The notes under the pieces are model-generated. The model had not been told where the DNA came from and ran no database searches. It worked only from the letters and a program-made list of their open reading frames with translations. A stretch of DNA of 64,000 bases from Candidatus Nitronauta litoralis (GTDB taxonomy: Bacteria > Nitrospinota > Nitrospinia > Nitrospinales > Nitrospinaceae), in the NCBI GenBank assembly GCA_015698285.1, contig CP048685.1, positions 2,356,001 to 2,420,000 on the forward strand, given 5' to 3'. Shown here one piece after another: positions 24,905 to 30,182 of the stretch; position 1 is the stretch's first letter; the number at the start of each line of letters is the position of its first letter. The position numbers were made by a program, and so were the translations under genes.

Positions 24905-25098
24905 TGACCTCGTAAAGGGAGCCATCCTGATCAATATTCCTGGCAGTGACCGAATTACCAGCTACTCGCTGGCAGACAAACTTTAGTATGCAGTTATCCC
25001 TCTAGTAGTAAAGCAAAGGGGGCACCCACCCATTAGCAGGCTCCGTGTCAAAGGACGAGCGTGTCCCTTAGCTTTCAGCAGACCATTCTACTGCAAGA

Positions 25099-25186
25099 TA
25101 TTTTCTTTTAAACAGGGCAGAGTTGTTTGTTACGCTTTCTGGTTTTCGTTTTCTTTGATGTCGTTCCTTGACGGATACGCATCAGT
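25099..25186 (+). repeat. Imperfect repeat, copy 1 (inside the IS relic)
   Basis: About 88 bp alignable with 30023-30108. The best block is TTTTCTTTTAAACAGGGC followed by (A/G)GAGTTG; both copies also have TGTTACGC and end in ACGCATCAGT. Similarity by eye is about three quarters, in the same orientation. It lies in the non-coding part of the IS110 relic, so the second copy may be a fragment of another such element. Confidence 0.6.
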
Positions 25187-25354
25187 CACCCATCTGGTTC
25201 AAGGCTCAAGGCAAAGAGCCTTCTACAACTCTTTGCCCCCTGGCTTGTTCGCCCCAGAAAACCTTTGGTTCCCTGCCATGCTCAGATCTTGAGCGTTACA
25301 CTCTTTCGACAATTCTGTGGCTTGCCATTAAATGGCATCCAGACCCTTGTTGAT

Positions 25355-25927
25355 TCATGACACGGGCGTAACCATGTTACTGGCAACAGCCAGCTCAAGA
25401 GACTCATCGTCAAACTTTTCACTCAATATCTCCGGAGTCAAACGCTAGAACTCTTTTAACTGGATCCCGTCCCCCGTGTTCCGTGTGAACAGGTTCTGGA
25501 TAGACAATACATTCGCTGTCTTCTGCCGCACCAGTTGACTCCGTTTCCTGAGAAGGTCTCGAACCGAACGTTGTTCTTTTGGACAAATGTAACCCTCCTG
25601 CAACAATCCTAACCGAAATACGTGAGCCAGAAAACGGGCGTCCGATTTATCATCCGTGTGTTTCAATCCCTCGTGCTGCTTGATCGCAGAAGGATTGGCC
25701 AGATGCATCTTGAATCCTGCATCCATCAAACAATCGACCAGCCAATACCAGTTGTAGGTCGACTCAACCACAATACCCTTTAACTGGTTTCGAAACGGAA
25801 GAAGAACCGGGAGGATCTCCTGTAAATCATTGCAATGCTTCATTTTGTAAACCACCTCATCGTCTTCATTAATGATAACGATCACACTGTTGTTTGAATG
25901 AAGGTCAATTCCGCAATATAATTCCAT
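25355..25927 (-). pseudogene. Truncated IS110-family (DEDD) transposase with an in-frame stop
   Basis: From the ATG at 25927 the product starts MELYCGIDLHSNNSVIVI and contains the RuvC-like DEDD residues: Asp in GIDLH, Glu in VVESTYNWYW, and Asp in KHTDDKSDARFLAH. After 160 residues a TAG (25445-25447) interrupts it. The same frame then continues with RLTPEILSEKFDDESLELAV to a second stop at 25355-25357. The C-terminal domain with the catalytic serine (about 150 more residues) is missing. Normal family length is about 340. The gene is therefore inactive through both a nonsense mutation and a 3' deletion. Confidence 0.85.
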
Positions 25928-26010: not shown

Positions 26011-26030
26011 ATCAAGTCTTTAATTGACTA
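26011..26030 (+). repeat. Degenerate copy of the RHS-breakpoint hairpin
   Basis: ATCAAGTCTTTAATTGACTA closely resembles the core of the hairpin at 29191-29210, with a weakened stem (TCAA/TTGA). It lies just outside the inverted repeat of the IS110 relic and faces the copy at 26199-26227. Confidence 0.5.
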
Positions 26031-26198
26031 TATTTGTGAAAGCTCACATTATATTTAGAGCGGGGTCCATGCAAGTCTCGTCCTATTAGGTCGGAAATTG
26101 CTGAAGACTGGTAAAGGATTTAAATCTTTCATATGGTATTTAATGGAAGCTTACCACTATCAAGTGATAGGGATTGAGACAAATTCAAATTTTAATAA

Positions 26199-26227
26199 GT
26201 AGTCAAATAAAGATTTGACCCCTTTAT
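26199..26227 (-). repeat. Hairpin element, copy at the 5' break of the RHS C-terminal fragment
   Basis: A 7-bp perfect stem, GTCAAAT (26202-26208) and ATTTGAC (26213-26219), with loop AAAG. Read on the reverse strand, it matches 29183-29211 at 27 of 29 positions. The two differences form one base pair of the stem (A-T here, G-C there), so pairing is conserved. RHS coding similarity begins right where it ends. Confidence 0.8.
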
Positions 26228-27439
26228 AATTCCAACCGACGTAGTGTGGACGGAGGTCTGACCAAAAATGCAACTTACGACTTGCAAGATCGTCTGGAAA
26301 CATTCAAAGATTCAAGTGGAACCGATTGGACCTTCAAATACACCGCTAATGGTGAATTGCTGGAGAAGTTTGAAACTAATACACCTGCCAATAATGTTAT
26401 TTATTCATACGATGCTTTAGGAAACTTAACTCATGTGGATTTTCCTGGAACTGCCAATGATATCGAATACATCATTGATGGATTAAATCGAAGAGTGGGA
26501 AAGAAAGTAGATGGATCATTGATTAAGCAGTGGCTATACAAAGACCAGTTAAATATTATTGCTGAACTTGATGGGGCTGGCGCAATAACAAAGCGTTTCG
26601 TATACGCAAGCAAAGTCAATGTACCTGATTACTATATCGACTATACTGGCCCCGCTCCTGTTACGTATCGTATCATTTCAGACCATTTGGGAAGTCCGCG
26701 AACTATAATAAACTCCACCAGTGGAGTATCGGCACTAGATTTAGAGTACGATGCGTGGGGTAAGGAACTGTTCACTCCAGTGAATCGAGATTTGGTACCT
26801 TTTGGATACGCAGGAGGAATTTATGACCCAGACACTAAACTTGTAAGGTTCGGGGCAAGAGATTATGACCCAGAGGTTGGTCGATGGACCAGTAAAGACC
26901 CGATTCGTTTTGATGGTGATGGGGAAAACTTGTACGGGTATGTCTTGAACGATCCCATTAACTTTACCGACCCTTTTGGATTAGTTGTATTGGAGGATGA
27001 AGTTTCTATCAATTGTGAATTGCGAGAATCTGAGAGGTTTATTCCAACCGAATGTATTTGTAAGGCTTCTGGAATTACCCCGAATACTTCAAAATCGAAA
27101 TCCCCAAGAATAACGGCTAGCGCAAGTGCTACTATTGCAAATGCATCTGGGTCGATAGATCAAAATCTTGATCGCAGTGGGTCCATGGCGGCAGCACCTG
27201 ACCTAGCCATAAATGCAAATATTGCTATTGACCCGCCCCTTAAATTTGAATATAAAGGAACATTTGAGTGCGGAACTCCTCTAATAGGTTTTGGCACCTT
27301 CCCTGTTGATAAGGGGTTGGGTTTTCAAGGATTTTATTTGTCCTTAGGGGCATCAGCCCGAACAAAGTTTATTAATAGATTTGACAAAAAGAAAAGGGAT
27401 ATTATCCCCTTTTGCAATAGAACGACTCCATTAGATTAA
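26219..27439 (+). pseudogene. RHS-family C-terminal core plus variable tip (5'-truncated)
   Basis: The frame opens just after a TGA (26216-26218) inside the hairpin; RHS similarity starts at once (YNSNRRSVDGG), and there is no normal start. It then has YD-repeat material and the RHS-associated core end (KLVRFGARDYDPEVGRWTSK and YGYVLNDPINFTDPFGL). The ~150 residues after DPFGL are a variable tip: CECIC-type cysteines (TECICKAS), Ser/Ala-rich stretch, and FECGTPLIGFGTF. I recognise no toxin fold in it. The N-terminal shell of the RHS protein is missing, so this is an orphan tip module unless expressed by read-through. The GTG at 26246 is only the first formal start codon. Confidence 0.8.
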
Positions 27440-27452
27440 GGTAGACTAGGGA

Positions 27453-27671
27453 ATGGAGTGTATAACCAATACAGATGTGTTTGTTGTTCTTCTTTTTGCA
27501 TGTTACGGCTTTTTTTTGCTGTGCTTTACGAAGCAAATATCTGCCCATTTCGTTGATCAATTAGGAAAAAAAAATTCAAAAATATATTTCAAATTCTTGG
27601 GTATTTTTTGTTTAGTAGCAGCAATACTTGGGTTTTGCAAAATTGTATTATGGGATTGTAGGATTATTTAA
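27453..27671 (+). CDS. Small two-TM protein, candidate immunity or tip-associated protein
   Basis: A 72-residue protein starting 13 bp after the RHS tip stop. Two hydrophobic segments (about 8-27 and 44-68) are separated by a basic loop (GKKNSKIYFK). AT-rich, unlike the flanking chromosome. The gene directly after an RHS tip usually encodes immunity to it, and membrane immunity proteins exist, so this is a candidate by position only. No family recognised and the SD is weak. Confidence 0.5.
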   Translation: MECITNTDVFVVLLFACYGFFLLCFTKQISAHFVDQLGKKNSKIYFKFLGIFCLVAAILGFCKIVLWDCRII

Positions 27672-27686
27672 AGGAAAGGATCAAAT

Positions 27687-28421
27687 TTGAAAAGAGAGCT
27701 GTTTTCCAGGAGTTTGAATCTACAAAGAAATGGTCCTTTTTGGGCATCCTTTTTTATTTTGTATTTTGTGGCCTGGAGTAACCCATGCCAAGCGGTAGAT
27801 GGTGATATTTTCAGGCTGAGTTATCCTGATTTTGCCGTTACCAAACCACATGACTGGCGTTTCCATAGTCCTGAAGAAAGTCTATTGGATGTCGGGACGG
27901 TCTATAAGAATAAAACCTTGAATGAGATTCATCTAAAACGACTTGAAGATAAAGTTGAAAAAATAAAGAATAACAGCACAATATGGATTCCAAAGATTGG
28001 AAAATTTCAAGAATCCTATAGTGGTGTGAATTCTACGTTTAATGTAAATTTTAATGAAAAGGGTGCATTGAAAAGCCCCGTAAAAATATTGCAGAGTTAT
28101 TTATTGTTGCACCGCGAGGAATTGATCGATTTTGAATTTCATGGAAATAATTTAATTGAATTTGAGATTTTTGGCCAACCTGCCATATTCGGTAAATTTT
28201 CAAATATTTATCAATTAAATTCGGGAGAACGCTTTAAGGAAACTCATACGTACTGGATTATTAATTATGATGAACAGCACTATTTTACATTTTTAACAAC
28301 GTGTCCGGCTGAAAGTTGTTCTCAATACACCGAGCAGTTCTCAGATATTCTTGCCTCGATTTCTATTAGAGGGGTGAAAATTAATCAGGAAAAATTGGAA
28401 AAACTAAAGAAACTCTGGTGA
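27687..28421 (+). CDS. Exported protein of unknown function in the RHS locus
   Basis: A 244-residue AT-rich gene. The TTG start at 27687 is supported by AGGAAAGGA about 8 nt upstream. An N-terminal hydrophobic segment (about 17-36) ends at NPCQAVDG, so it is a signal peptide or possibly a lipid-anchored leader. The mature protein has a pattern of alternating strands with YPDFAVTKPHDWRFHSP near its start and TFLTTCPAESCSQYTEQF near its end. That layout recalls PsbP/DUF1795-like domains, but I cannot confirm it. RHS coding similarity resumes within about ten bases of its stop, so it forms part of an inserted tip cassette. Candidate immunity or cargo gene. Confidence 0.65.
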   Translation: MKRELFSRSLNLQRNGPFWASFFILYFVAWSNPCQAVDGDIFRLSYPDFAVTKPHDWRFHSPEESLLDVGTVYKNKTLNEIHLKRLEDKVEKIKNNSTIWIPKIGKFQESYSGVNSTFNVNFNEKGALKSPVKILQSYLLLHREELIDFEFHGNNLIEFEIFGQPAIFGKFSNIYQLNSGERFKETHTYWIINYDEQHYFTFLTTCPAESCSQYTEQFSDILASISIRGVKINQEKLEKLKKLW

Positions 28422-28425
28422 AGAA

Positions 28426-29271
28426 AAGTTAGAGGTTCTAACCCGACCGGGTCGTCCGGATCACAATTTCCAATTTGAATCCAGAGATCTTGAGGATTTG
28501 TACAGCCCTCCGGATCTTGATGAAAATGACCCTAATCAGTATGTGACATCTTTCCAATACAACGCCGACAAGGAACCAACCTTGATCACCCGTCCGGATG
28601 GAAAAACAATAGGGTTTGATTATGACTCTGGAGGCCGTTTAGAGTTTCTCACCATTCCGTTTGGAGCAGGCTCCGGAGATTACGAATATAGGTATTATCC
28701 AACATCTGGAAACCTTGAGAAGATAATCGCCCCTGATGGCGGAACCTTGACCTTTACATACGACGGGAAGCTACCCCTCACCACAACCTGGGCAGGGGAT
28801 GTAGCCGGAAGCATTTCACAGGTCCTGGACGACAACTTACGTGTAACCTCCAGAAGTGTTAACGGAGGCAACACGATCGCATTCGGCTACGATGATGACG
28901 ATGTGATTGATATGGCCGGTTCTGAGACGTTGAATTACTATCCCTCTAGCGGTTTACTGAAAGACACCACCTTGGACAATGTCATAGACGATCGCACCTA
29001 CAACGGTTTCGGGGAACTGGATACATACACCGCATCAACCGATATTTCAAATGTAGTGACAGAGGTTTTTAAAGAAGAATTTATCTTGCGAGATAAACTC
29101 GGTCGAATAAAACAAAAAAAGGAAACGGTTAACGGTGCCTCGCATACCTATGACTACACGTACGACCTGGCCGGTCATTTGAATAAAGGGGTCAAGTCTT
29201 TACTTGACTACAAGTTGAAAAAACACACTCCTCCAGAAAACTATTCTCCACTATTCCTTTTCTATCATTAA
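28426..29271 (+). pseudogene. RHS-family internal fragment (3'-truncated at a hairpin)
   Basis: RHS similarity starts upstream of any start codon, at about 28430 (KLEVLTRPGRPDHNFQFESR), directly after the previous gene's stop. It continues through YD repeats (FQYNADKEPTLITRPDGKT and YDYTYDLAGHL) to 29182. There it runs into the hairpin, and the remaining ~29 codons to 29271 are non-RHS read-through. The end of this piece (DLAGHL) and the beginning of the piece at 26219 (NSNRRSVDGG) look like neighbouring parts of one RHS protein, yet on the chromosome they are in the opposite order. No initiation signal; not expected to be expressed alone. Confidence 0.8.
29183..29211 (+). repeat. Hairpin element, copy at the 3' break of the RHS internal fragment
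   Basis: A GGGG head (29188-29191, shared with the stem's first G) precedes a perfect 7-bp stem, GTCAAGT (29191-29197) and ACTTGAC (29202-29208), with loop CTTT. It is the inverted-orientation partner of 26199-26227. The layout of a G-rich tetranucleotide plus hairpin resembles REP/IS200-type transposase recognition sites, but no such transposase is in the window. Confidence 0.8.
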
Positions 29272-29879
29272 AAGTAAGTCATCGGCACTTTAAATTTCAA
29301 AGCTACTCTCATAAGGGATTGGTTCACGTGAAAATCATGTTCGGCTGATAACCGTTCAAATGTCTTCCAATGCATTCCCTTCGGCTTTAACCCATTTCCA
29401 TTCAGAAAACCCGGTTCCCATCCCAGCCGATCCCGTATCTTATCCGCCCTCCTTGAGGTTCGATCCATTTCATTTTCCAATTGGCTTTGATAAGGGAGCT
29501 GGTGGCATTGCCTGCAGGCAAATAATCCCATACTGTACAATTTAGCTACCCGTCTTCCACACCCCTTGGTCGGGCAGAGAAACCAAGGGCGCTTTCCTCC
29601 ATAGTTGCACTTGGTCCAATCCAGATAAACCGGATAATGTTTTTCCTGCCAGTCCTCACCTGATCGCCTATGTTTATAATTCAAAATCACATGATCGTTT
29701 TCGACGTTCACCTGAATGTTTGATGTCACTTCTCCATTACGCAACCAATTCCAACCAAAATAACCTGGCGGTTTGAGCAACCCTTCCCGTTGCCAACGTC
29801 TGACATCAATTGCTATGCAATCGGATGTGGTGGTTTTGCTTAAAGAGAATCCGTACCTGCTACTTCCATAACCTCCCAT
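29268..29879 (-). CDS. Zinc-ribbon protein of unknown function, mobile-region associated
   Basis: A 203-residue soluble protein beginning MGGYGSSRYGFSLSKTTT. A central zinc ribbon is evident: FLCPTKGCGRRV and LFACRQCHQLPYQSQ (C-x4-C ... C-x2-C). Before it comes a beta-rich segment (VNVENDHVILNYKHRRSG), after it a charged helical region. I recall similar proteins as unannotated hypotheticals scattered near mobile DNA in proteobacteria, but I know of no assigned function. The gene ends 57 bp from the hairpin at 29183-29211. It may be the accessory gene of the element that broke the RHS gene. The stop codon overlaps the read-through tail of the RHS fragment. Confidence 0.7.
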   Translation of the reverse strand: MGGYGSSRYGFSLSKTTTSDCIAIDVRRWQREGLLKPPGYFGWNWLRNGEVTSNIQVNVENDHVILNYKHRRSGEDWQEKHYPVYLDWTKCNYGGKRPWFLCPTKGCGRRVAKLYSMGLFACRQCHQLPYQSQLENEMDRTSRRADKIRDRLGWEPGFLNGNGLKPKGMHWKTFERLSAEHDFHVNQSLMRVALKFKVPMTYF

Positions 29880-30182
29880 TGAAACACCTTCAGATTTTTA
29901 CCGAAATCATTAGGGAAATCGATCCAAATAAGTGGAAAGGGCATTTATGGCTAATAATGTATTATTTTTTCAAGTTTTTCATTTTTCGGCACAATAGGAT
30001 TGAAAAATTTTATGCTGGAACTTATTTTCTTTTAAACAGGGCGGAGTTGATGTTACGCATCCTGTTTTCTTTTAGGTTGATGTAGTTCTTTTAAGGACAC
30101 GCATCAGTGATTTTATCGTACTCGCGTCTGTATCCTCCTGTTGTATTAAGATACCCGGGATGTTTATATTGTTCGAATCGCC
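29880..30182. other. Intergenic region before the tRNA pair
   Basis: About 300 bp without a credible gene. It holds copy 2 of the imperfect repeat (30023-30108); the rest is AT-rich. Confidence 0.4.
30023..30108 (+). repeat. Imperfect repeat, copy 2
   Basis: Matches 25099-25186 in the same orientation, with the block TTTTCTTTTAAACAGGGC and the common end ACGCATCAGT. No transposase or inverted repeat accompanies it, so it looks like a solo remnant. Confidence 0.6.

Follow-up and report, generated by a model that had tools for sequence, protein, structure and literature searches.

The window, a 64,000-nt stretch of the Candidatus Nitronauta litoralis genome (contig CP048685.1, positions 2,356,001 to 2,420,000), carries two pieces of RHS genes that flank two small ORFs and that each end at a hairpin (Table 1). 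The left piece, here called B, together with what follows it, has the make-up of an orphan module, namely an RHS fragment without a 5′ end, a tip after the DPxGL motif and then a small ORF. No family match was found for the tip of piece B or for the adjoining ORF(s), and their toxin and immunity roles are those of candidates. The right piece, called A, is the 5′ part of a further orphan module, and beyond its hairpin lies a zinc-ribbon-like ORF. This ORF has four further partial copies in the genome, three of which are cut at the head of a similar hairpin. Since homologues of it occur in three relatives with no hairpin nearby, it can be ruled out as a dedicated or fixed cargo of the hairpin element. 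A dispersed repeat also found in the window is twice joined elsewhere to a copy of the zinc-ribbon ORF, at its stop codon (genome positions 1552606 and 2898963).

Table 1. Features around the two RHS pieces, in window coordinates.
Feature	Position	Strand	Description
Dispersed repeat, first window copy	25008..25205	+	~165-200 nt; 10 genome copies
Truncated IS110-family transposase	25445..25927	-	only the DEDD domain kept; lies left of the 216-bp TIR element
Degenerate TIR without G-rich head	26011..26035	+	model positions 8-32; covariance match 25.2 bits, E 0.029; 95% identity over 19 nt to the right TIR
Tail-side body of left element	26128..26226	-	78% over 101 nt to the TIR copy at genome 1618151-1618251; stops exactly at the head
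TIR hairpin (36-nt model), right end of left element	26191..26226	-	head TAAAGGGG points right, into RHS piece B; covariance-model match 58.5 bits; exact pattern match; fold z -5.9
RHS piece B	26228..27439	+	starts NSNRRSVDGG; 5′-truncated core (TEN_YD-shell / Rhs_assc_core) and C-terminal tip after DPFGL
72-aa ORF, candidate immunity gene	27453..27671	+	directly 3′ of the tip; role inferred from position
244-aa ORF, candidate second immunity gene	27687..28421	+	no family match; stop 4 nt before RHS piece A
RHS piece A	28426..29182	+	YD-repeat core, ends DLAGHL; 5′ part of the next orphan module, 3′-truncated at the TIR head
TIR hairpin (36-nt model), left end of right element	29184..29219	+	head points left, into RHS piece A; covariance-model match 56.3 bits; exact pattern match; fold z -3.1
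Zinc-ribbon-like ORF	29268..29879	-	203 aa, MGGYGSSR...; no family match; behind the right TIR
Dispersed repeat, second window copy	30010..30108	+	

The earlier note on this DNA had described the hairpins as 29-nt elements at 26199-26227 (-) and 29183-29211 (+). We found them at these positions, in inverted orientation and identical at 27 of 29 positions, and the two mismatches indeed form a single compensatory stem pair, A-T against G-C. Comparable hairpin matches occurred in none of 100 shuffled windows, and folding as single-stranded DNA gave -6.9 kcal/mol for the left hairpin and -5.9 kcal/mol for the right, well below shuffled sequence in both cases. Across 20 distinct copies, 95% of the stem cells are paired and both-sided changes are seen in two of the seven stem pairs; since shuffles equal the covariation score in 19 of 500 cases, covariation of the hairpin is weakly supported. 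The degenerate TIR to the left indicates that the left hairpin is one end of an element with two inverted ends, and the two ends together delimit a REPIN/MITE-like element of ~216 bp. The body behind the right TIR, which carries the zinc-ribbon ORF, is a different one, so that there is no obvious case for taking the two window elements as ends of a single one.

Far from being unique, the hairpin recurs throughout the 3.92-Mb single-contig genome, with 25 copies found by pattern search and 27 by a covariance model built from the pattern copies, the degenerate window TIR being one of these, while a reversed control pattern had no match genome-wide. The foot next to the hairpin reads GGGG in most copies and GGAG or GGTG in some. 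Only one clear element with two TIRs was found besides the degenerate one in the window, and the homology on the tail side varies in length from 37 to 450 nt, the head end being exact. In a search of named organisms, the exact hairpin had a single match outside the genome's own kin, in a MAG. The genome contains one Y1 (HUH) transposase gene (~2899773-2900756), which encodes 327 aa with a Y1_Tnp domain (PF01797, 56.2 bits, cut-off 23) and a C-terminal DnaA-like HTH domain, Bac_DnaA_C (PF08299, 38.5 bits, above the cut-off of 31.5); its match to the NCBIfam model REP_Tyr_transpos (NF047646) is just at the cut-off (80.1 bits, cut-off 80). This gene is bracketed by inverted TIRs at 2899718 (+) and 2900764 (-), with their heads pointing outward. 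The multiple copies and this bracketing bear out the proposal that mobile elements of the IS200/REP kind end in these hairpins, and, judged from sequence, the Y1 transposase probably moves or joins the TIR ends. IS200/IS605 elements are known to show a replication-strand bias; no such bias was seen for the TIRs within the 1.43-3.45 Mb half of the genome (11 versus 13). This half, in which the + strand is the leading one by GC skew, holds 25 of the 27 copies.

The exact border of the element can be read from its junctions. Both TAAAGGGG and the stem-loop are common to the aligned copies, whose tail side is conserved within families; the sequence beyond TAAAGGGG is random except for a purine in ~21 of 24 copies, and different repeat families all terminate exactly at the head. 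For four junctions, those of an IS copy, two zinc-ribbon copies and an aspartoacylase-like gene, the genome also holds intact homologues for comparison. The IS copy (junction GGTGTCCT/TAAAGGGG, intact homologue GGTGTCCTGCCG) and one of the zinc-ribbon copies (CCGCCTG/TAAAGGGG, intact homologue CCGCCTGGTTGC) fix the border at TAAAGGGG to the base; the second zinc-ribbon copy and the aspartoacylase-like gene agree with it, one or a few bases being ambiguous. The hairpin head TAAAGGGG is thus the exact element border.

About 12 heads adjoin coding remnants, and in most of these cases a gene without its 5′ part reads outward from the head. The adjoining sequence is a 5′-truncated RHS core in window piece B and at loci L013 and L017, and an RHS tip homologous to a full-length RHS protein at L001. 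Elsewhere the head abuts toxin tips, namely the last part of a papain-fold domain at L015 and a PIN domain at L016, and at L023 it borders a methyltransferase-like domain. Transposase genes follow the head at L008 (only the end, of an IS256 type) and at L010 (IS481-like). The zinc-ribbon ORF does so three times, and an aspartoacylase-like gene, named from a reading of its translation, at L012. Window piece A provides the clearest cut on the 3′ side. In both A and B, what is left of the coding sequence runs directly up to the head, and the breaks in the RHS genes do fall at the hairpins as originally proposed. In the cases checked, within the stretches read, no missing gene half was found beyond the element. 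Because coding DNA fills most of a genome, heads inside reading frames are unsurprising, and that they are concentrated in dispensable genes is the outcome expected from selection. In the relatives, no association of TIRs with RHS genes was seen, most heads there lying in non-coding DNA.

Several other arrangements were observed in the genome and its relatives. Terminal fragments (85-143 nt) of a 1232-bp IS481-like element occupy, in the manner of TIR heads, the 5′ ends of orphan RHS pieces at L039 (genome 2217506 and 2219307), L041 (3427977) and L047 (3061420). Nested partial heads are stacked beside complete TIRs at the L007, L009, L011, L015 and G026 loci, for example as several TAAAGGAGTC in a row, and look as if new ends had repeatedly joined existing heads. 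A repeated unit consisting of an island end, the 3′ half of a tRNA-Arg and a TIR occurs at L038, L041 and L042 (1067569-1067806, 1533575-1533878, 1534693-1535136, 3422572-3422747, 3425723-3426178, 3426830-3427283 and 3429475-3429990); four of these copies also hold the dispersed repeat of Table 1, and within the units truncated toxin tips and candidate immunity genes come after several of the heads. A TIR lies ~90 nt downstream of the intact tRNA-Arg (1059120-1059194). Finally, the second copy of a 690-nt tandem duplication in L047 (3059433-3060924) starts exactly at a TIR head.

The earlier note had taken A and B for consecutive parts of one RHS protein, with the later part lying first on the chromosome. 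Comparison with homologues showed that the two pieces map to adjacent regions rather than to the same one: A lies directly upstream of B, in one frame and without overlap, in at least nine uninterrupted homologues, among them L041 and L047 of this genome and eight or more loci of relatives. The pieces are consecutive but for a short gap, with about 27-66 nt (9-22 aa) separating them in most contiguous homologues and ~100 nt in L047. These homologues are distant, with the B core at most ~63% identical and A less, so that none of them shows the particular RHS gene of the window intact; a search of named genomes by peptide patterns confirmed no relative of piece A. In the relative G047, an intact array runs A-B-tip-immunity-A-B-tip-immunity-A-B-tip-immunity, and each next RHS fragment begins a few nucleotides past the immunity stop, as piece A does 4 nt past the stop at 28421. 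No TIR hairpin was found in the G047 array, indicating that the order comes from the array and not from the hairpin, and that A opens the next orphan module while B is what remains of the one before. The apparent swap in gene order is itself ordinary and needs no circle.

We consider it probable that the TIRs of REP-like elements of the IS200/IS605 superfamily, of TIRYT type and served by the Y1 transposase, cut a tandem array of RHS orphans on both sides, with A and B belonging to neighbouring modules. The window would then hold the 3′ remains of module n (B, its tip and the immunity ORF(s)) followed by the 5′ part of module n+1 (A), each module having been struck by a different TIR-ended element. 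At the left cut this would be a short two-ended element that also meets the truncated IS110 copy, and at the right cut an element with the zinc-ribbon ORF behind its TIR. The parts of the array outside the two cuts would have been lost, possibly by insertion plus decay or by deletion adjacent to the TIR. No empty site was found, synteny left of 30176 being lost in both congeneric genomes. GC3 falls from 50% over the final 300 nt of A to 33% over the initial 300 nt of B, a difference that, given large within-gene variation, weakly suggests two different RHS copies. Of the two origins offered in the earlier note, a recombination between two tandem RHS copies stands in its tandem copies, which come close to the present reading, hairpin-free tandem orphan arrays in the relative giving the series B-tip-immunity-A. 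The other, insertion of one element into one RHS gene followed by circularisation, is not supported, since the same order occurs in the relative with neither hairpin nor circle and the element bodies differ.

A broader form of this insertion origin, in which a two-ended TIR element entered a single RHS gene with the loss of ~30-60 nt of target and a circular permutation or tandem duplication then left B-tip-immunity-A between the heads, does explain why A and B adjoin in RHS coordinates, only 9-22 aa apart, and the orientation of the heads (A-TIR>...<TIR-B) is the one that a two-ended insertion predicts. For a module of ~2 kb, we estimate a chance of ~7% that two cuts fall this close together in RHS coordinates by coincidence; the near-identical positions mildly favour a single origin over two cuts in a tandem array, and duplication of a module that had already been interrupted might have given both cuts a common origin. 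Nonetheless, the different elements behind the two TIRs, the change in GC3 across the joint, the same order in TIR-free intact arrays of the relative and the distance of all contiguous homologues, none of which is the window gene in intact form, make an origin from a single gene improbable. The reading of the hairpins as transcription terminators, or as chance palindromes kept for expression, with no tie to a transposase, can appeal to their folding (z of about -3 to -6), but it is hardly credible for a family of 27 similar copies with a G-rich head that brackets the only Y1 transposase, breaks unrelated genes precisely at the head and has no T-run past the stem.

Within the preferred reading of a tandem array cut by TIRs, and overlapping with it in confidence, lies the more specific and rather unlikely case of one-ended events, in which the transposase would nick a head and join it to a new site preceded by a purine, with deletion or displacement of the intervening DNA. 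Solo TIRs with variable tails would then actively sculpt the toxin arrays. The scarcity of two-TIR elements, the variable tails behind an exact head, the purine preference, the outward reading of most truncated genes and the absence of several missing gene halves past the TIR, within the stretches read, are all consistent with such events. However, in dispensable DNA, ordinary insertion with later decay and recombination can give the same picture, the TIRs of relatives are not on RHS genes, and the TIRs lack a replication-strand bias. Further still, a TIRYT transposase acting at single hairpin ends might cut and re-sort RHS modules and so yield hairpin-capped orphan toxin/immunity cassettes genome-wide, a proposal that we regard as quite doubtful.

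To our knowledge, the mobility of RAYT/TIRYT elements has rarely been demonstrated, and a REP-like family whose border can be read from gene breaks is therefore useful. The series of junctions in RHS genes, toxin tips, IS transposases and the zinc-ribbon gene offers material for a target rule, a purine before TAAAGGGG. For the RHS field, it adds a further route to orphan modules without their ends. In the literature searched, no text joined RAYT/TIRYT elements with rhs.

TIRtrons, or TIRYTs, have been described as RAYT-like genes between inverted repeats with the motif GGGGWSAS, some of them forming repeated families (PMC3733652), and most TIRYTs have been placed in subclass 2.1 of TnpAREP, with DnaA-like or other HTH C-terminal domains and no REP-like sequences reported near the genes (PMC6006769). 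The element described here resembles them in its Y1/HUH transposase with a C-terminal Bac_DnaA_C HTH, its flanking inverted repeats and its extra solo and paired TIRs, and its motif GGGGTCAA (GGGGTCA ends) fits seven of the eight positions of GGGGWSAS, the last being A and not S. It differs in that its TIR is a clean hairpin with a 7-bp stem and a G-rich foot. Likened through these published descriptions, the Y1 element is, by its sequence features, probably of the TIRYT/TIRtron kind, sharing all of them except one motif base. With REPs and REPINs and their RAYTs, it shares a short hairpin, a 5′ G-rich guide-like foot, a single transposase gene and copies that are solitary or in inverted pairs (PMC3116915, PMC2817692). 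A canonical GTAG REP/REPIN is nevertheless ruled out by a foot that in most copies is GGGG instead of GTAG or GGAG, by a family of only 27 copies and by the ~12 heads that adjoin coding remnants instead of standing between intact genes.

Orphan modules that lack start codons have been described, as have similar silent cassettes at rhs loci and the disruption of orphan modules by IS elements in the related CDI systems (PMC3150448). The arrays described here are like the rhs-CT/rhsI orphans in being tandem toxin-gene fragments with no 5′ part and with a candidate immunity gene after each (PMC3150448), but unlike them they keep a long core (A and B), and TIR heads or IS ends form their limits. 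The parts are all of known kinds, a TIRYT-type element and an ordinary tandem array of toxin modules.
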